The notes under the pieces were generated by a model. It saw only the letters and a program-made list of their open reading frames with translations, made no database searches and was not told the DNA's origin. Positions 35,302-45,421 of a stretch of 52,273 nucleotides of DNA are shown here, in pieces (position 1 is the first letter of the stretch; each line of letters starts with the position of its first letter). Source of the stretch: an uncultured Erysipelotrichaceae bacterium (GTDB lineage: Bacteria; Bacillota_I; Bacilli_A; Erysipelotrichales; Erysipelotrichaceae). Location of the stretch: assembly GCA_949296305.1 (NCBI GenBank), contig CASFOT010000081.1, positions 1 to 52,273 of the forward strand. The letters run 5' to 3'. The position numbers were made by a program, and so were the translations under genes.

Positions 35302-35443
35302 CTGATCCTTCCTCTCTGTTTTTTTATATATCATTCTTATTCTATCTTTTTTTGCAAGAGATGGAAAGTTATTTTCATAAATTGTCCATGTAAAAGAGTA
35401 TGATATATGTTAGAATGTTTATGCTGTAAAGGAGATGAGGTCG

Positions 35444-36709
35444 ATGGCACAAGAAAAAAAGAAAAGAATGCTGGAAGCGTTTCGCATGCCGAAAGAAAAA
35501 GATTTATGGCTGCATTATACGGTCCTTACATTGACCTTATTTGGCTCATTTATGATCATATCGACCAACATGGGCAATGTGACTGCCAATAATTATGCGA
35601 TCCTCATCGTTTTTATCAAACAGATGGTCTTTTTGGTCGCTGGTTATATAGGAATGCTGATTGCCAGCAGACTGATGAACTTTCCGCTGGTCTACCGCAT
35701 CAGCAAACTGTTATTTGCTTTTTTGCTGTTGTTGATGATCGTGCCGTTATTCGGGATTGAGCAAAATGGTTCCCGCGCATGGATCTATCTGAATTTAGGT
35801 GTTACCAGCGTGTCGATCCAGCCTTCCGAATTTTCAAAACCATTCATGATCGTTTTGATCGCATCTTATTTTTATGCAGCCCAGCATAAACGCTCTTTGC
35901 AGCGCAGCAGCTGGCTCATGCTGAAAGTACCTGTATTGTGTTATATTGCTTTTGCTGTAGTCTTGCTTTTGCAAAAGGATATGGGAGCCCTCGCTATTCT
36001 GACATTGGTCTGCTTTGGCTGTGTTCAAGTGCCAACATTTCCTTCCTTGCGTTCTTTGCAGAAATGGATCCGCCGTTTGACTTTGGCAGCGGTGTGCGGG
36101 GTCATATTATGTATGTCTCCGCTAGGCGAACCCATCGTAGAAAAATTGGCAGATACGCCAGGAATTAGTTATATAGCGACCCGGATCGTCAATGCAGCGA
36201 ATCCTTTAGGACAGGGTGGAAATGATATTTATAATCAGAGCTATCAGTCTGCCAATGGGCTGTATGGAATCGCAAATTCAAATATCGTCGGGCAGGGGAT
36301 CGGTGGATCTTCGCGTAAATTTGGTTATCTGACACAGGCTGACAGCGATTATATCTTAGCTGTTATCATAGAAGAAACTGGAATTTTTGGTCTGCTCATC
36401 ATTGCGGGAGGCTATGCGATCATCTGGTTCCGTTTGTTCAAATATGCGTTTTTGACTAATTATATGCCATATAAGATCATATTAAGCGGTTCAGCTGTGT
36501 ATTTCTTTTCTCATTTTGTTTTGAATATTGGCGGAGTGAGTGCTTTGATCCCGTTGACCGGTGTGCCGCTCTTATTTATTTCGAATGGCGGTACCGCGTT
36601 GGTTTCTTCTTATCTGACGATCGGGATCTGTCAATCCGTGATCGGTTCGATTCGTCGTAAAGAAGTGCCAAATCAAGGAAAAAAGAAGTCCGGCTATGCG
36701 GACTTCTAA
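35444..36709 (+). CDS. SEDS-family peptidoglycan polymerase (FtsW/RodA type)
   Basis: A 421-residue membrane protein with about ten helices. GSRAWIYLNLG followed by IQPSEFSKP is the SEDS hallmark containing the catalytic-loop region; NIVGQGIGGSSRKFGYLTQADSDYILAVIIEETG is the large extracellular loop with the conserved ESDFIF-like segment (here DSDYILA). IGGVSALIPLTGVPLLFISNGGT closes the family. It polymerises lipid II glycan strands with a partner class B PBP. FtsW and RodA cannot be separated with confidence: no pbp2 or mreBCD lies nearby, and the motif spacing fits FtsW slightly better. Start at ATG 35444: AAAGGAG is 9 nt upstream, whereas ATG 35435 touches it. Confidence 0.9.
   Translation: MAQEKKKRMLEAFRMPKEKDLWLHYTVLTLTLFGSFMIISTNMGNVTANNYAILIVFIKQMVFLVAGYIGMLIASRLMNFPLVYRISKLLFAFLLLLMIVPLFGIEQNGSRAWIYLNLGVTSVSIQPSEFSKPFMIVLIASYFYAAQHKRSLQRSSWLMLKVPVLCYIAFAVVLLLQKDMGALAILTLVCFGCVQVPTFPSLRSLQKWIRRLTLAAVCGVILCMSPLGEPIVEKLADTPGISYIATRIVNAANPLGQGGNDIYNQSYQSANGLYGIANSNIVGQGIGGSSRKFGYLTQADSDYILAVIIEETGIFGLLIIAGGYAIIWFRLFKYAFLTNYMPYKIILSGSAVYFFSHFVLNIGGVSALIPLTGVPLLFISNGGTALVSSYLTIGICQSVIGSIRRKEVPNQGKKKSGYADF
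36679..36706 (-). terminator. Minus-strand terminator-like hairpin in the 3' end of the SEDS gene
   Basis: GAAGTCCG (36685-36692), loop GCTATG, CGGACTTC (36699-36706), preceded by six A's. It codes for the last residues of the SEDS protein. On the plus strand no T-run follows; on the minus strand it reads as a standard terminator. Confidence 0.5.
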
Positions 36710-36819
36710 AGAAAGGGAAGAGGAGAAACAAAGATTGGGGGTTTCACATCCGTTGTTTCGCCGGATGCATTAGTATCATGCCCGCTTTCATCGTAGATAT
36801 ACGTGAGGAGTTGAAAAAA

Positions 36820-37374
36820 ATGAGAATTGTTGCAGGTGAGTTTCGTTCCCGCACCTTGGCCAGTGTTGATGGAAACCAGACCAGGCCAACGGCAGATAAG
36901 ATCAAGGAAGCTGTTTTTTCCAGCATAGGACCTTATTTTGACGGGGGGATCATGCTGGATGCTTATGCAGGCAGCGGGAATATCAGTTTTGAGGCACTGA
37001 GCCGCGGAATCGAAAAAAGTTATCTTTGTGATATCAGCGGGAAAGCAATCTCAACGATCAAGAAGAACACTGCGATGCTGCAAGTACAGGATCGCTGCAA
37101 GATTTATAAACGGGATGTTTTTTTGATGCTGGATCAATTTGTTGAAGAACAGCTGCAATTTGATCTTGTGTATATGGATCCTCCTTATCGTTTGCAGCGC
37201 TGTGACGCGTTAATGGAAGAATTGATGAAACGGGATCTGCTGGGCAAAAAAGCGCTCGTCATCGTAGAAAGCCTGAAAGAAGATACGTTTGAGAACATGC
37301 ATGGCGATCTGCAAAAACAAAAAGAGAGCATTTATGGAATCACCAAGATCACATATTATAGGAGGGCGTTATGA
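36820..37374 (+). CDS. rsmD: 16S rRNA (guanine(966)-N(2))-methyltransferase
   Basis: A 184-residue SAM-dependent enzyme that methylates G966 of 16S rRNA. It starts MRIVAGEFRSRTLAS, matching the family N terminus, then RPTADKIKEAVFSSI. The SAM motif LDAYAGSGNISFEALSRG occupies about residues 46-63, and the catalytic motif DPPY lies at about 124-127 in LVYMDPPYRL. Start: ATG at 36820 behind GAGGAG; the frame extends to 36778 without a site. Its stop overlaps the coaD-rnc start as TTATGA with AGGAGGG in its last codons, so expression is coupled. rsmD followed by coaD is the usual order in Firmicutes. Confidence 0.93.
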   Translation: MRIVAGEFRSRTLASVDGNQTRPTADKIKEAVFSSIGPYFDGGIMLDAYAGSGNISFEALSRGIEKSYLCDISGKAISTIKKNTAMLQVQDRCKIYKRDVFLMLDQFVEEQLQFDLVYMDPPYRLQRCDALMEELMKRDLLGKKALVIVESLKEDTFENMHGDLQKQKESIYGITKITYYRRAL

Positions 37375-38594
37375 CAAAAGCAGTATTTCCGGGATCTTTC
37401 GATCCGATCACACTTGGACATTTGCATCTGATTGAGCGTGCTGCGCGTTTGTATGAAGAAGTGATCATCGTCATCGCAGTCAATTCTTCAAAGCATGCGT
37501 TGTTTACGATCGAGGAAAGACGTGCCTTGATCGAGGAAAACATTCGATCAGCAGCAAATGTGCGGGTGGATGTCGCTGAAGGCCTATTAGTAGAGAAAGT
37601 GAAAGAGCTGCAGGCAACGGTCATGCTGCGCGGCGTACGGGATCTGCAGGATTTTGCTTATGAGAAACAGATTGCATGGGCAAACCACGAGCTGGATCCT
37701 TCGATTGAAACGATCTGCATGTTTGCCGCAGAAGGATATGGGGCGCTGTCCAGTTCCATCATCCGTGAGTTTGCTTCCTATGGCAAAGACGTTTCCCGTT
37801 ATGTGCCGGCGAACGTGGCAAAAGCGATCGCTGAGAAATATGCAGATAAAAGAAAGGAAAAAAGCAGTGTTTCGATTTCAAATGAAAACACTGCTGCGGT
37901 AAAAGAAATGGGAAATACGATGTTTGACTGGCTGAGGGAAAATCATATTCCTTTCAGTCGGAAAGATTTGATCACAGAAGCATTGACGCACTCATCTTAT
38001 TTGAATGAACATAAAGAGATGGTGCATGATAACGAACGTTTAGAATTTATGGGTGATGCGGTTTTGCAGCTTTGGACGACAGAGAAACTGTTTCGGCTGA
38101 AGACCCCGCTGGATGAAGGGAAAATGACGACTTTGCGCTCACAGCTGGTTTGTGAAGCTGCACTTGCACACTACAACCGAGAACTGGGATGGGGACAATA
38201 TCTGCTGCTGGGCGTTGGGGAAGAACGAACAGGCGGAAGAGAACGAGATTCTTTGTTAGCAGATATGTTTGAAGCCATGCTGGGCGCTTTGTATTTGGAT
38301 CAAGGAATGCAGCCGGTATCCATGATCTTGGAACGGGTGCTCACACCAGCGATCGATGAACCGAAAAATGAAGTGCTGATCGATTACAAGACCAAACTGC
38401 AGGAAGTCGTGCAGGCAGACACCCGCAAGACGCTGCAGTATGAGTTGCTGAATACGCAAGGACCGACCAATCATCCGGAGTTCGAGATGGCCGTATTATT
38501 GGATGGCATCGTACTTGGCAAAGGAAAAGGAAATTCAAAGAAACGTGCTGAACAGATGGCCGCAAAAGCCGCTTTTGAAAAGATGGCACGGTAA
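37371..38594 (+). CDS. coaD/rnc: Fused phosphopantetheine adenylyltransferase (CoaD) and ribonuclease III
   Basis: One 407-residue frame with two complete enzymes. Residues 1-163 are CoaD (4'-phosphopantetheine to dephospho-CoA): PGSFDPITLGHL (nucleotide-binding H-x-G-H type), RGVRDLQDFAYE and the SSSIIREFASYGKDVS motif. Residues about 184-407 are RNase III: NERLEFMGDAVL signature, EAMLGALYLDQG with catalytic acids, and a C-terminal double-stranded RNA-binding domain with GKGKGNSKKRAEQMAA. The linker (about 164-183) is polar. No strong ribosome binding site precedes ATG 37908 or 37920, so separate RNase III translation is not supported. RNase III is normally an independent gene by smc. Length of both halves is normal. 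Coupled to rsmD by ATGA. Confidence 0.9.
   Translation: MTKAVFPGSFDPITLGHLHLIERAARLYEEVIIVIAVNSSKHALFTIEERRALIEENIRSAANVRVDVAEGLLVEKVKELQATVMLRGVRDLQDFAYEKQIAWANHELDPSIETICMFAAEGYGALSSSIIREFASYGKDVSRYVPANVAKAIAEKYADKRKEKSSVSISNENTAAVKEMGNTMFDWLRENHIPFSRKDLITEALTHSSYLNEHKEMVHDNERLEFMGDAVLQLWTTEKLFRLKTPLDEGKMTTLRSQLVCEAALAHYNRELGWGQYLLLGVGEERTGGRERDSLLADMFEAMLGALYLDQGMQPVSMILERVLTPAIDEPKNEVLIDYKTKLQEVVQADTRKTLQYELLNTQGPTNHPEFEMAVLLDGIVLGKGKGNSKKRAEQMAAKAAFEKMAR
37863..37895 (-). repeat. 10-bp perfect inverted repeat in the CoaD-RNase III linker
   Basis: AGCAGTGTTT (37863-37872), 13-nt loop, AAACACTGCT (37886-37895), with six A's just to the left. On the minus strand it is a terminator-shaped hairpin with T6. 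On the plus strand it lies in mRNA immediately before the RNase III coding part. Confidence 0.75.
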
Positions 38595-38608: not shown

Positions 38609-39859
38609 ATGAAAAAATGCAGCATAGGGATTCTTTTAGCTTGCTTGCTGTGCATATTGCCTGTGCCGATCAAGGCAGTAAGCACCGTGCAGTTGCATAG
38701 TACATACGCATTGGTTGCAGATCTGAATACGCTGCAAACGATTTACGGAGAAAAAGAGGATGACAAATTATATCCGGCATCCATGACGAAAGTGCTGACC
38801 GTATTGACCGCTATGGATCAGATCGATGATCTGGATCAAGAAGTGACTATTACGCCAGAGATGTTGGTAGGACTGGAAGATGGTGTTTACTCCTTAGCCG
38901 GGTTTTTAAATGGCGAAGTGATAACGATGCGGGATCTGCTGTATGGAGCGATGCTGCCAAGCGGTGCAGATGCCTGTCAGGCATTGGCAGTTGAGCTGTT
39001 TGGCAGTGAAGAAAACATGGTTGATGCAATGAATAAAAAAGCGCAATCGATCGGCATGGAGCACTCGCATTTCACGAATACCGTAGGAATGCATGATGAT
39101 GATCATTATACGACCGCCAGCGATCTGGTATTGTTGATGAAAGCAGCATGGTCAAATGAAGAAATCAAGACGGCTATGTCTACGAAGACGTATTCGACTT
39201 CCTCTTCCTATTATCATGGAGAGGGGCTTGCATTGAAAAATACATGGACGTACCAGCTGCAGGCAGCCGGGATCGATGATCCGCATGTGATCGGCGGAAA
39301 AACCGGTTATACGCCTGAAGCTGGTTACTGTTTCTTTGGTGTTTGTGAGATCGATGAGCAATCTGTGATCGTCGTTGTCGCAAAATATGAAGATGACGAG
39401 GATAGCGTTGGCATGGGGTCCATGCTGGATATAGAGAACTTATGCACATTTGTGGAAGAACAGAAACAGCCGGTGCTTTTAGCTGAAAAAGGCGATTTGA
39501 TTGCCGAACTGGATCTGCGTTATACGTTTCATGAACCATTATCTTTAACGACACCTTGCGATCTGATTGTCTGGGTCGATCAAACATCGGATGAAAAACC
39601 GCAGATCCAAGTGGAATACAAGAAATCACAGGCACCGGTCGCCAAAGGGGAGCTGATCGCCGAAGCTGTGATTCTCTATGATGATAAAGAAGCCGCCAGG
39701 GTTGCGATCCTTGCAGATCAAACGATCGATCGTGATATCACAGCAGTGATCGTCGATACGCTGACAGATCTGGTTTGGCCATATGGGCTGACCATTATGC
39801 TGGTTGCTGCAGCCGGCAGCTTGCTGATCGGAAGAAAAAAGAAACTGCGCAAAAAATAG
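38609..39859 (+). CDS. D-alanyl-D-alanine carboxypeptidase (penicillin-binding protein 5/6 class)
   Basis: A 416-residue envelope enzyme that trims the terminal D-Ala from peptidoglycan stem peptides. Signal peptide 1-23. Active-site motifs: SMTK (Ser58 nucleophile, Lys61), SGA at about 117-119 where most have SGN, and GGKTGYT with KTG near Lys230. The C terminus (about 385-416) has a membrane helix and a KKKLRKK tail, so it is bound by a real transmembrane helix rather than an amphipathic one. The beta-rich domain II (about 270-370) is present. Signature loss of the SGN asparagine could alter acylation. GGGTGATG lies upstream. It follows coaD-rnc closely and is probably in the same transcript. 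Confidence 0.9.
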   Translation: MKKCSIGILLACLLCILPVPIKAVSTVQLHSTYALVADLNTLQTIYGEKEDDKLYPASMTKVLTVLTAMDQIDDLDQEVTITPEMLVGLEDGVYSLAGFLNGEVITMRDLLYGAMLPSGADACQALAVELFGSEENMVDAMNKKAQSIGMEHSHFTNTVGMHDDDHYTTASDLVLLMKAAWSNEEIKTAMSTKTYSTSSSYYHGEGLALKNTWTYQLQAAGIDDPHVIGGKTGYTPEAGYCFFGVCEIDEQSVIVVVAKYEDDEDSVGMGSMLDIENLCTFVEEQKQPVLLAEKGDLIAELDLRYTFHEPLSLTTPCDLIVWVDQTSDEKPQIQVEYKKSQAPVAKGELIAEAVILYDDKEAARVAILADQTIDRDITAVIVDTLTDLVWPYGLTIMLVAAAGSLLIGRKKKLRKK

Positions 39860-39871
39860 GAGGGAACAAAG

Positions 39872-41041
39872 ATGGATTTTGAAGAATTGATCGAACGAGG
39901 AGAAGACAGTGAGAAATGGCAAGGAGCCAAAGCCAAAGACGAACTTCCACTATGGGTGGCTGATATGGATTTTGCCTGCAGCGATGCGATCATAGAAGCA
40001 TTGCGCCAGCGTGTAGATGAACGGATCTATGGATATACCAATGGAATGCAGGAGGATTATAAACAATGTGTACAAGCGTATTACCAGCGTCATTTTCACT
40101 GGCATTTTCCGATCGAGGATCTTTTCTTTTCCAATGGTGTCGTCCAAGGAATCTCTCTTTTATTGCAATTGCTGAGCAATGAAGGAGATGGCGTGCTCAT
40201 TCAGACACCGGTTTATCATCCATTCCGCCGTCAGATCGAAGCAAACCGCCGCTGTTGCGTGACGAGTTCCTTGATTCATCATGAAGATGGCCGTTACGAA
40301 ATGAATTTTGCAGATCTCGAAGAAAAAATGAGCCGTTCGACCGTTGCAGGGATGATCTTATGCTCTCCGCATAATCCAGTAGGACGTGTTTGGAAGATTG
40401 AAGAACTGCAACGTGTGTGTGCGATCGCAAAACGATATCATAAGTGGATCATCAGTGATGAGATCCATTGCGATATCATCAAAGAAGGTTATGTTCATCA
40501 TCCTTTAGAAACCATTGCACCCGAATATAAAGAAGAAATCATTACGTGTGTAGCACCGACAAAGACCTTTAATATCGCTGGTGCTGAATGTTCTCATATC
40601 ATTCTTCATAAGGAAGAATATAAAAAACGTTGGAAAGCATTTGTCATCGATCAGCTGTGCATCAGTGCACCGAATTGCTTTGCGCTCAGCGCAAGCAAGG
40701 CAGCGCATGCGAATAGTGATGAATGGCGTGCACAGATGAATCAAAAAATTGACGAAAACGAGCGTTATGTACGAGCCTTTTTACAAAAAGAACTGCCTGA
40801 AGCTGTTTTATCACCTAGAGAGGGTACCTATCTTCTGTGGGTCGATCTATCTGCTTATGAAAAAGACCCTGAACGGTTACAGCAGCGCATGCGGAAACAT
40901 GCCCGCCTGCATTTCAATGAAGGCATCATGTTTGGCGAAGAAGGCGCTTGTTTTGAACGAATCAATATTGCCTGTCCTGCTTCGATCTTAAAAGAGGCAT
41001 GTCATCGTCTGGCAGTTGAGCTGAAGAAAGAGAGAGTATGA
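39872..41041 (+). CDS. MalY/PatB-family PLP enzyme (probable cystathionine beta-lyase)
   Basis: A 389-residue fold-type I PLP enzyme. The PLP lysine is Lys231 in APTKTFNIAG. LPLWVADMDFACSDAI at the start, YTNGMQEDY, and SPHNPVGRVW with the conserved Asn-Pro-x-Gly are typical of the MalY/PatB subgroup, which cleaves C-S bonds of cystathionine or cysteine rather than transaminating. ISDEIHCDII contains the aspartate that binds the pyridine nitrogen. GGAGGGAAC lies just before ATG. It ends 51 bp before polC and starts 12 bp after the carboxypeptidase gene, so it lies within the cell-growth operon. A role in methionine synthesis or cysteine desulfhydration is inferred from the family. Confidence 0.87.
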   Translation: MDFEELIERGEDSEKWQGAKAKDELPLWVADMDFACSDAIIEALRQRVDERIYGYTNGMQEDYKQCVQAYYQRHFHWHFPIEDLFFSNGVVQGISLLLQLLSNEGDGVLIQTPVYHPFRRQIEANRRCCVTSSLIHHEDGRYEMNFADLEEKMSRSTVAGMILCSPHNPVGRVWKIEELQRVCAIAKRYHKWIISDEIHCDIIKEGYVHHPLETIAPEYKEEIITCVAPTKTFNIAGAECSHIILHKEEYKKRWKAFVIDQLCISAPNCFALSASKAAHANSDEWRAQMNQKIDENERYVRAFLQKELPEAVLSPREGTYLLWVDLSAYEKDPERLQQRMRKHARLHFNEGIMFGEEGACFERINIACPASILKEACHRLAVELKKERV

Positions 41042-41092
41042 TCCGCTCCTCTTTTTCATCTTTAAAACGGATCGTTGAAAAGAGGGATCAAG

Positions 41093-44000
41093 ATGGAACT
41101 GAAAATCAAAGAGTTTGTGAATAAACTGGCATTGGATGAAGAATCCAGATCATGGATCGAGACAGGTTCTTTTTCGATGCGTCCGGTCTATCATCGCAAT
41201 AACAATCTTCTTGAATTACAGATAAAGTTGAAAAAAGCCCTGCCCTATATGGTGTATCATCGCTTGCTTTCGCGTCTGCATATGTATCTGAAAGCGAAGA
41301 TCGACCTGCAGATAGAAGCTGAAGATGGAAATGTTGCAATCAGGGATCTATTGGATTACATTCAGCATCTGGCACAGCGGAAACCAAGTGCGCGCATCTT
41401 CGAAGAAGTGATGCCTTCCATTCATGAACATACGATCCTCTATCAAGTACAAGATGAAATGATCAAAGAACAGCTGGATGCAGGCGTCGTCTTATTAAAA
41501 GATTTTTTGGAAAAAGCAGGAATTACCATGGAGATCAAGATCGAGATCAAACAAGTATCAGAAGCGATCCCCGTGGTTAAATGTGAAAATGTGCCGATCA
41601 AGAATCCGCCTTTGACAGAGCCTAAAAAAGATCATGGATTCAGACATCGCAAGATATCATTAAAAGATTACATGAAGGTCGATATCAAAGACCTGCAAGA
41701 CGGCATGTCAAATGTGATGATCCATGGACATATCTTCCAAAGTGAGATCACGACATTTAAAAATGGAAAAAGCATGCAGACATTGTATCTGAGCGACGAT
41801 GATGATGCGATCATCATCAAGCGTTTCGAACGTGGCGCGACGACAAAAGAAGAATTAGAAAGCATAAGAGAAGGCGATACCGTCACAGCGTATGGACAAG
41901 CGGTAATGGATTCATTTTTGTCAGATCTAGTGTTCATGCCGAATCAGATCGAGAAAGTTGAAGCACCTAAGCGCAATGATCTGGCAGAAGAAAAGCGGGT
42001 AGAGCTTCATGTGCATTCAAACTTTTCAGAAATGGATGGCGTTTGTGATATCGCACAGTTCATCAAGACTGCAGATGCATGGGGCATGGATGCCATTGCT
42101 TGCACAGACCATCTGGTTGCTCAAGCATTTCCAAAAGCACAGTCGACATTGGCAGCGGTAAATAAGAACCGCGAGAAACCGATGAAAGTATTGTATGGCG
42201 TGGAGATGAACATGGTCGATCCTGACCTGCAAATCGTATATCATCCAAATGATACGATCTTAGAGGAAGGGACCTATTGTGTATTCGACTTGGAAACGAC
42301 GGGACTATCCGCCCGTTATGACCATATCATTGAATTTGGCGGTGTGATCGTTGAAAACCGATCTTGTGTCAAGAGCCTGCAGCTGTTTGTACGGCCGCCG
42401 CATGAGCTGAGTGCTTTTACGACAGAACTGACCGGCATCAGCGAAAAGGATGTTCAACAGGCTGCTTCTTTTGAGGAATGTGTCGATCAGATCCTTGATT
42501 TTATCGGAGATCATATCTTAGTTGCACACAATGCTTCTTTTGACTTTTCTTTTTTGAACAGTGCTTTACGCCGAATCGGCAGAAAACCATTGACCAATCC
42601 GGTCATTGATACATTGGATCTGGCTCGTTCTTTGCAAACAGAGCGAAAATCTTATACATTGGGTGCAATTGCTCGTTCCTATGGGATCGCTTATGATCAA
42701 GAAGTTGCCCATCGAGCGGATTATGATGCGGATGTGCTCGCCCAGACCTTTTTGCATATGCTCAATGAACTTCGCGATATTCAGACATTGAACGATCTGC
42801 AGGGACGGCAGAACCCGGAAAGCTTCAAGAAAGTACGTACGAAACATGTGGTCGTGCTGGCAAAAAACCAATGCGGTCTGAAAGAACTGTTTGAATTGGT
42901 TACGTTGAGCCATACAACGTATCTTGCTTATAATGGAAAAACAGCCTTATCAGGAGTTGCTGAACCGCGCATTCCGCGTATCGAGATCGAGAAACGCCGT
43001 ATGAATGGCAATTTGTTGATCGGTTCTGCTTGCGCAAATGGGGAAGTTTTTGAGATGGCTCAAACACGGGATGTGGATGTGCTAAGGGAAGTCATGCAGT
43101 TTTATGATTATATCGAGCTGCAGCCATTAGCGAATTATCAGTATCTGATCGATCGAAATTCGATCATCGACCAAGCACGATTGAAAGAAATCTTAAATGG
43201 CATCATCGATATGGCGGATGAACTCGGTAAACCGATCGTAGCAACCAGTGATGCGCACTACGTTCATCCCAACCAAAAGAGGATCCGTGACATTTATATC
43301 AATTCCCAAGCCATTGGTGGACTGCGCCATCCTCTGTATATTTATAATTCCGAGAAGCGACATCAATTTCATGCACCGGATCAGCATTTACGCACGACGA
43401 AAGAGATGCTGGATGCATTTGCCTGGACAGGAGAACGCGCGTATGAATTTGTCGTGACTAATACAAACCGGATCGCTGATCAGATCGAGATGATCTATCC
43501 AGTAAAAGATAAGTTATATCCGCCGGATATTGAAGGATCCGATCAGAAGTTGCGTGAAATTTGTTATCAAAATGCTCATAAGAAATATGGAGAAGTTCTG
43601 CCGGATATCGTTGAACAACGTTTGAAAAGAGAGCTGGATGCCATCATTGGCGCCGGTTATTATGTGGTTTACTACATTTCGCACCTATTGGTAAAAAAGA
43701 GCCTGGATGACGGGTATTTGGTCGGCAGCCGTGGCTCGGTCGGTTCTAGTTTTGTCGCGACGATGTCTGAGATCACAGAAGTAAATCCGCTGGCTCCCCA
43801 CTATGTTTGTCCAAAATGCAAGTATTCCCATTTTTACACGGATGGCAGCGTGCTCAATGGTTTCGACCTTCCGGATAAGAAATGTCCCAACTGCGGCACG
43901 ATCATGCGTGGCGATGGACAAGACATACCATTTGAAACCTTCTTAGGTTTTGAGGGTGATAAAGTACCGGATATCGATCTGAACTTTTCCGGTGATTATC

Positions 44001-45421
44001 AGCCAAGGGCACATGCGTACACGAAAGAAGTTTTCGGTGATGAACATGTCTTTCGTGCAGGTACCGTTGGTACCGTTCAGACACAGACAGCGTTTGGGTA
44101 CATCAAAGGATTTGAGGAAGCAATGGGCATCGAAGGAACGATGCGCAATCCGAAACGCATGGATCTGGCGAAATTGTGTGAAGGGGTGAAGCGTACGACC
44201 GGCCAGCATCCTGGCGGAATCGTTGTCGTGCCCCTCGATATGGATGTGCATGACTTTACCCCGGTTCAGTATCCAGCAAACAATCCGTTTGCAGACTGGA
44301 AGACGACCCACTTCGATTTCCATCAGATCCATGATAATATCTTAAAATTTGATATCTTGGGCCATGTAGATCCTACGGCGATGAAGATGCTGGAACGCAT
44401 GAGCGGAATTGATGTGCGCACGATACCGATGAATGATCCGGAGACGATGAGCATCTTTTCCAGCGTACAGGCATTGAATATCGATACGAGCAAAAATACA
44501 GAGGAAACCGGTGCAGCCGGTCTGCCTGAATTTGGCACGCCTTTCGTGCGTGGGATCTTAGAGCTGACCAGACCGACGACCTTTGACGAGCTGCTGAAGA
44601 TCTCTGGTTTGAGCCATGGTACCGATGTTTGGTTAGGAAATGCAAAAGATCTGATCGACCGCGGCATCTGTACGCTGAAAAGCGTTATCGGATGTCGTGA
44701 TGACATCATGGTCTATTTATTGCATAAAGGAATGAAGCCAAAGCTTGCCTTTACGATCATGGAATCTGTTCGTAAAGGAAAAGGTTTGAAAGATGAATGG
44801 ATCACAGAAATGAAAGCAAACGGAGTAGAAGACTGGTATATCGATTCTTGCAAGAAGATCAAATACATGTTCCCAAAAGCACATGCGGTCGCTTATGTCA
44901 TGATGGCCGTACGCATTGCTTGGTTCAAGGTCCATATGCCGTTGGTTTATTACTGCATGTTCTTTTCCATTCGCTGCGATGCCTATGACATCGAGACGAT
45001 GATCAATGGAGAGGCCAGCATTCGCCAGCGCATGGCACAGATCCAAGAGCTTTCTCGCAGCAATGATCGTAATGTGAAGCCGAGCAAAAAAGACTTAGAT
45101 ACGTATTCGACATTGGAATTAGCATTAGAGATGGTGCTGCGCGGATATCATTTCTCCAATATCGATATCAATCGATCGGCGGCCAGCGAGTTTATCATTG
45201 ATACAGAGCATAAGAATGCGATCATTCCTCCATTTACCAGCATTGATGGACTGGGCGCCAGCGTTGCAGAATCCATCGTAAAAGCACGGGAAGAAGCACC
45301 ATTCTTGTCAAAAGAAGATCTGTTGAAACGAAGTTCGCTCAGCGGTTCCTTGTTGAAAAAACTGGATGCGCTCAATGCACTGGAAGGATTGCAGGAAGAA
45401 AATCAGTTATCCTTGTTTTAA
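41093..45421 (+). CDS. polC: DNA polymerase III, PolC type
   Basis: A 1442-residue replicative polymerase of low-GC Gram-positives. Order: an OB-fold region at about 190-290, the PHP domain first half (VELHVHSNFSEMDG, about 302), an inserted DEDD 3'-5' proofreading exonuclease beginning VFDLETTGL at about 395, the rest of PHP, a four-cysteine zinc site (CPKC...CPNC, about 905-935) and the palm with DIDLNFS near residue 958. The C-terminal part contains a tandem helix-hairpin-helix and ends in SLF, near the LSLF beta-clamp-binding motif (QLSLF). The start ATG 41093 is behind AAGAGGG; the upstream frame is rejected. Length fits PolC (1430-1460). Essential for replication. Confidence 0.96.
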   Translation: MELKIKEFVNKLALDEESRSWIETGSFSMRPVYHRNNNLLELQIKLKKALPYMVYHRLLSRLHMYLKAKIDLQIEAEDGNVAIRDLLDYIQHLAQRKPSARIFEEVMPSIHEHTILYQVQDEMIKEQLDAGVVLLKDFLEKAGITMEIKIEIKQVSEAIPVVKCENVPIKNPPLTEPKKDHGFRHRKISLKDYMKVDIKDLQDGMSNVMIHGHIFQSEITTFKNGKSMQTLYLSDDDDAIIIKRFERGATTKEELESIREGDTVTAYGQAVMDSFLSDLVFMPNQIEKVEAPKRNDLAEEKRVELHVHSNFSEMDGVCDIAQFIKTADAWGMDAIACTDHLVAQAFPKAQSTLAAVNKNREKPMKVLYGVEMNMVDPDLQIVYHPNDTILEEGTYCVFDLETTGLSARYDHIIEFGGVIVENRSCVKSLQLFVRPPHELSAFTTELTGISEKDVQQAASFEECVDQILDFIGDHILVAHNASFDFSFLNSALRRIGRKPLTNPVIDTLDLARSLQTERKSYTLGAIARSYGIAYDQEVAHRADYDADVLAQTFLHMLNELRDIQTLNDLQGRQNPESFKKVRTKHVVVLAKNQCGLKELFELVTLSHTTYLAYNGKTALSGVAEPRIPRIEIEKRRMNGNLLIGSACANGEVFEMAQTRDVDVLREVMQFYDYIELQPLANYQYLIDRNSIIDQARLKEILNGIIDMADELGKPIVATSDAHYVHPNQKRIRDIYINSQAIGGLRHPLYIYNSEKRHQFHAPDQHLRTTKEMLDAFAWTGERAYEFVVTNTNRIADQIEMIYPVKDKLYPPDIEGSDQKLREICYQNAHKKYGEVLPDIVEQRLKRELDAIIGAGYYVVYYISHLLVKKSLDDGYLVGSRGSVGSSFVATMSEITEVNPLAPHYVCPKCKYSHFYTDGSVLNGFDLPDKKCPNCGTIMRGDGQDIPFETFLGFEGDKVPDIDLNFSGDYQPRAHAYTKEVFGDEHVFRAGTVGTVQTQTAFGYIKGFEEAMGIEGTMRNPKRMDLAKLCEGVKRTTGQHPGGIVVVPLDMDVHDFTPVQYPANNPFADWKTTHFDFHQIHDNILKFDILGHVDPTAMKMLERMSGIDVRTIPMNDPETMSIFSSVQALNIDTSKNTEETGAAGLPEFGTPFVRGILELTRPTTFDELLKISGLSHGTDVWLGNAKDLIDRGICTLKSVIGCRDDIMVYLLHKGMKPKLAFTIMESVRKGKGLKDEWITEMKANGVEDWYIDSCKKIKYMFPKAHAVAYVMMAVRIAWFKVHMPLVYYCMFFSIRCDAYDIETMINGEASIRQRMAQIQELSRSNDRNVKPSKKDLDTYSTLELALEMVLRGYHFSNIDINRSAASEFIIDTEHKNAIIPPFTSIDGLGASVAESIVKAREEAPFLSKEDLLKRSSLSGSLLKKLDALNALEGLQEENQLSLF

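Follow-up and report, generated by a model that had tools for sequence, protein, structure and literature searches.

Animal coenzyme A (CoA) synthase is a fusion of pantetheine-phosphate adenylyltransferase (PPAT) and dephospho-CoA kinase, in which PPAT activity forms one domain of a larger polypeptide and the partner catalyzes the pathway step that follows. Class I RNase III, which works as a dimer, is known as a free-standing protein with a catalytic domain and a double-stranded RNA-binding domain (dsRBD) (TIGR02191; PDB 1o0w), and bacterial PPAT is likewise known as free-standing CoaD (TIGR01510; PDB 3nd5 and 1b6t). In a crystal, CoaD forms a hexamer with two- and three-fold symmetry, and roles have been described for its Lys42, Arg88, Arg91 and SSS motif (PMC12784347). 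A gene joining coaD and rnc was identified in the window, i.e. the whole stretch of 52,273 nucleotides analyzed here, which comes from an Erysipelotrichaceae bacterium. Its CoaD part shares the full domain, the motifs, the single copy and the position behind rsmD with free-standing CoaD, but continues at the C terminus into a linker and an entire RNase III. The RNase III part has the usual catalytic domain, dsRBD and complete acidic site, but lacks a free N terminus because CoaD and the linker stand in front. As in animal CoA synthase, PPAT is one domain of a larger chain, whereas the partner is an unrelated ribonuclease. With good confidence, we regard the product as a two-enzyme polypeptide of approximately 45 kDa that originated in two steps and whose halves most likely work independently.

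The features of the locus are collected in Table 1. The frame at 37371-38594 (+) comprises 407 codons without an internal stop, and the encoded protein exceeds the cut-offs of two NCBIfam equivalog models: TIGR01510 for CoaD (residues 4-156; 179.6 bits vs. 103.3) and TIGR02191 for RNase III (residues 190-404; 238 bits vs. 166.25). Pfam matches were CTP_transf_like, Ribonucleas_3_3 (PF14622, residues 198-324) and dsrm, the last being a single dsRBD located C-terminal to the RNase III catalytic domain. The closest solved structures were PDB 3nd5 for the CoaD half (residues 4-159, E 5e-42) and PDB 1o0w for the RNase III half (residues 186-406, E 5e-47). Equivalents of the CoaD active-site residues (H17, K41, R87, R90 and S127-129) and the nucleotidyltransferase motif (P7-H17) are present, with Ser9 where PGTFDP has Thr; the acidic site of RNase III is complete (E222, E225, D229, D298 and E301, within NERLEFxGD and LADxFEA). 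All these active-site residues are invariant across the three Merdibacter species discussed below. A previous reading of this DNA from sequence only had proposed one continuous CoaD-RNase III frame with both catalytic motif sets intact; both proposals were borne out, as the frame is open, both models pass and every residue checked is present. By its sequence features, the first half is an adenylyltransferase with predicted activity and hexameric assembly, and the second is a class I RNase III with predicted dimerization and cleavage of double-stranded RNA. Since a strong AGGAGG site is found at 37360, translation into one polypeptide would be expected.

Table 1. Positions of the fusion gene, its parts and its neighbors in the window.
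Feature	Position	Strand	Remarks
ftsW/rodA-type gene, upstream neighbor	35435..36709	+	
rsmD	36778..37374	+	coaD start overlapped by 4 nt
AGGAGG, ribosome binding site of fusion gene	37360..37365	+	-10.7 kcal/mol
coaD-rnc fusion gene	37371..38594	+	407 aa plus stop; homologues in relatives
CoaD (pantetheine-phosphate adenylyltransferase) domain, aa 1-157	37371..37841	+	TIGR01510, PDB 3nd5
Linker, aa 158-184	37842..37922	+	variable in sequence and length; codon alignment, dN/dS
AAAGGA, Shine-Dalgarno-like	37853..37858	+	conserved in 3/3 species
Possible RNA stem-loop in linker	37863..37895	+	arms 37863-37872 and 37886-37895
ATG (Met180)	37908..37910	+	retained in 3/3 species; one codon from free-standing rnc start position
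RNase III catalytic domain, aa 185-324 (NERLEFMGDAV; LADMFEA)	37923..38342	+	PF14622, PDB 1o0w
Double-stranded RNA-binding domain, aa 339-404	38385..38582	+	Pfam PF00035
dacA-type D-Ala-D-Ala carboxypeptidase	38609..39859	+	named by sequence
patB-type aminotransferase	39872..41041	+	named by sequence
polC	41075..45421	+	directly 3' of rnc in most unfused coaD-rnc sister genera

The window was assigned to the genus Merdibacter by kinship to two named records of that genus. The same fusion occurs at the same locus in the other two species examined, Merdibacter massiliensis (413 aa) and Candidatus Merdibacter merdigallinarum (417 aa). Matches over the full length (residues 1-407) were confined to these three genomes, one in each. 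The window comes from a draft assembly that is 85.8% complete, and a missed stop or indel could in principle have joined two genes; this reading has practically no probability left, because independent genomes carry the same fusion with differing linker lengths, and one of them belongs to a cultured isolate, a type strain, that was mate-pair sequenced (PMC6538751). The distribution of the fusion was examined within the phylum. The remainder of the order Erysipelotrichales, family included (316 genomes, 80 genera), gave no fusion. The class and the phylum were sampled evenly (395 and 392 genomes, respectively), at a match threshold that a fused protein should pass, and these samples gave none either; a scan of 84,980 species genomes with short peptide patterns reaches close relatives only. 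No paper on a CoaD-RNase III fusion was found in a literature search. The earlier statement that no established enzyme of this kind is known is supported, as neither a fusion outside the genus nor a describing paper was found in these searches. The fusion is real, fixed, restricted to the genus, and composed of two complete enzymes. The pairing is new to the sources searched, and the type of event, fusion of tightly adjacent genes, is known.

Comparison with relatives revealed how the two genes may have come together. A family-wide comparison of coaD and rnc positions showed the two genes unfused and tightly adjoining in at least nine further genera (g2, g19, g24, g26, g27, g28, g30, g48 and g58), where they occupy the corresponding locus with the gene order ftsW-(rsmD)-coaD-rnc-polC. 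These pairs (e.g., in G220, G163 and G157) share the gene order, with recG-X elsewhere, but differ from Merdibacter in keeping the coaD stop, which overlaps the rnc start or lies within 3 nt of it wherever the junction was read exactly, commonly as ATGA. Mostly, rnc is in a different frame from coaD. In G220 (L073/L078), the two share a frame and are separated solely by TGA ACT before the rnc ATG, with the single TGA as the stop between them; this genome is one codon short of a comparable fusion. Of the 12 unfused coaD-rnc genomes checked, 11 have recG followed by X, the former neighbor of coaD, and the same recG-X order is present in Merdibacter. In relatives whose RNase III is most similar, coaD and rnc lie at two different loci, ftsW-rsmD-coaD-X and recG-rnc-(others)-polC, and the sister family f2 has recG-plsX-rnc, with coaD elsewhere. 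Several local variants were also observed. The dacA- and patB-type genes (38609-41041) separate rnc from polC in Merdibacter. In L074 (G169, genus g29), rnc lies directly 3' of plsX as in f2, representing a third rnc neighborhood in the family. Finally, rsmD was undetected between ftsW and coaD in L092, L094, L095, L100 and L103 (g24 and g28) and is present there elsewhere in the family; the g24/g28 copies may have been lost or moved.

In a concatenated tree, Merdibacter is sister to the coaD-rnc genera (SH-aLRT 99.8 in a quick IQ-TREE run; FastTree 1.0), and the recG-rnc genera branch outside both. Single-gene trees conflict, with RecG grouping Merdibacter with the recG-rnc genera and FtsW grouping it with the coaD-rnc genera. 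Because these two trees give opposite answers, the sister position is likely but not certain. The simplest history, which is likely to be correct, runs from recG-(plsX)-rnc through a rearrangement to coaD-rnc plus recG-X, and then to fusion in Merdibacter. In the first step, an ancestor common to Merdibacter and at least nine sister genera would have undergone a chromosomal rearrangement that set rnc-polC behind ftsW-rsmD-coaD and, reciprocally, moved X behind recG; in the second, the coaD stop would have been lost in the Merdibacter lineage, with the frames brought into register at the tight junction. The rearrangement should be older than the fusion, since the unfused coaD-rnc genera also carry recG-X. 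Two other origins were considered and rejected. Joining of recG|rnc with coaD|X does not by itself account for the fusion, as unfused adjacent pairs together with recG-X are present in many other genera. Horizontal acquisition of coaD is not indicated either: its identities to relatives (39-50%) lie inside the range among other genera (38-73%), and both halves show identities to free-standing relatives within the normal range.

The evolutionary rates of the domains and the linker were compared among the three species. Amino acid identity of the domains is 84-92% and synonymous sites are near saturation. Purifying selection is strong on both domains, with dN/dS of roughly 0.05-0.11 in CoaD and 0.02-0.03 in RNase III. 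A further coaD or rnc was not found in any of the three genomes, of which the window assembly is 85.8% complete and that of M. massiliensis, with a single coaD and a single rnc, is 99% complete. As only this coaD and this rnc were found per genome, both halves must work. The linker has about 27 residues in the window, with 7 and 10 additional codons in the other two species; its dN is 0.21-0.51 (codon alignment, three species), and its residues differ except for KEKS and a few others. All its indels are multiples of three and the frame is kept throughout. In simulations of neutral drift by substitution only, before indels are counted, the observed divergence left all three linkers open in about 4-17% of runs, so that drift by itself would seldom preserve the frame in every copy. 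The linker is mostly hydrophilic and probably flexible. It is also variable and long enough to be exposed, and a protease might cut there to release two free enzymes; with no evident conserved cleavage motif, this outcome appears quite improbable. Independent enzymes within one chain are favored, because the linker is poorly conserved as protein.

At the nucleotide level, the three linkers share AAAGGA, a possible stem-loop that is always 33 nt long, and an ATG at constant spacing (37853-37910). Pairing of AAAGGA with the 16S tail was -10.3 kcal/mol in the window and -10.0 in M. massiliensis, compared with -10.7 for the AGGAGG of the fusion gene. Several sister-genus coaD 3' ends carry Shine-Dalgarno-like sites just before rnc, and for this reason AAAGGA may be what remains of the ribosome site of a once separate rnc, enclosed in the 3' end of coaD. 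The stem-loop had z-scores of -4.4, -3.0 and -2.7 in the three species, showed changes on both sides at 4 of its 10 pairs (three sequences), and exceeded synonymously recoded versions in stability (p = 0.005, 0.017 and 0.105; amino-acid-controlled Fisher p = 7e-4). Because other parts of the gene reach scores as low and only three sequences are available, it is a possible lead. No Rfam match was obtained. A -1 frameshift signal (A-run plus hairpin) was rejected, given that the A6 run is broken in Ca. M. merdigallinarum and the zero frame is open throughout. An intrinsic terminator was rejected as well, as there is no U-tract 3' of the stem on the + strand and a terminator scan detected none there.

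These elements bear on whether internal initiation in the linker also yields free RNase III, making one gene the source of two products. Initiation might use AAAGGA with ATG180, or TTG174 in M. massiliensis and ATG178 in Ca. M. merdigallinarum, perhaps helped by the intervening stem-loop. The strong pairing of AAAGGA and its conservation at the DNA level, the retention of ATG180 in three species despite differing neighbor codons, the support for the stem-loop from z-scores, recoding and paired changes, and the rnc ribosome sites inside coaD in sister genera are all consistent with such a model. However, the three species share no in-frame start that is suitably spaced from AAAGGA: the well-spaced start in the window is GTG 37867, which is out of frame, and the pairing ahead of the in-frame ATG180 is just -3.1. 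Besides the similar RNA-structure scores elsewhere in the gene, a stronger chance Shine-Dalgarno-like site occurs in the RNase III part of the Ca. M. merdigallinarum copy, and three sequences give little power. We therefore judge a second product to be unlikely. The sequence-only reading had stated that there is no strong internal ribosome binding site, which needs qualification: AAAGGA itself pairs nearly as well as the gene's own site, while the starts available to it in the window are out of frame or weak.

For the favored single polypeptide, CoaD would be N-terminal and class I RNase III C-terminal, so that the two are made 1:1 and tethered by the variable linker. CoaD would assemble into the hexamer normal for this enzyme, and the RNase III domains would dimerize either inside one hexamer or between different ones. 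In the first arrangement, the six domains could form three dimers round a CoaD hexamer, since 32 symmetry provides two-fold axes; in the second, the dimers would link hexamers. A linker of about 27-37 residues seems compatible with either arrangement. The mismatch between hexameric and dimeric symmetry suggested earlier thus appears overstated, given the two-fold axes already available. An AlphaFold model from three homologues (pLDDT 37.5) was too poor to use.

No evidence that the fusion couples the two activities was obtained. The fusion might be a regulatory device in which the assembly or ligands of CoaD control RNase III, or tethering of RNase III regulates CoA synthesis. Its retention in three diverged species and the strong constraint on both halves would fit such a device, but the constraint is explained by single-copy function alone, the partners were already adjacent without fusion in at least nine genera through rearrangement, and the linker is not conserved as protein; regulation of this kind is considered very improbable. 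A specific version has three RNase III dimers mounted on the CoaD hexamer, whose occupancy by ATP, phosphopantetheine or CoA would alter the place or efficiency of their cutting, with linker RNA tuning the amount of free RNase III. It is a highly speculative scheme with little chance of being correct, and if true, RNA processing would follow the CoA state. The earlier proposal that the fusion connects CoA level with RNase III is unsupported, the two genes being tight neighbors already in the sister genera. To our knowledge, no pathway is common to CoaD and RNase III, and the fusion has one origin among the genomes searched, so that a Rosetta-stone argument does not apply. As sister genera already have the two genes as tight neighbors, the pairing is explained by adjacency, and the merger probably arose from it rather than from shared function.

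An essential metabolic enzyme and a global RNA-processing enzyme in one chain represent an unusual joining, here in a small genus of gut bacteria. In annotation, such an open reading frame may be named after just one of its halves. The case also cautions that fusion alone is not proof of functional linkage. With the precursor states visible in living relatives, from recG-rnc through adjacent coaD-rnc to the fusion, Merdibacter is a clean test case for two questions: whether a functional reason is required for domains to fuse, and how hexameric and dimeric enzymes share one chain.
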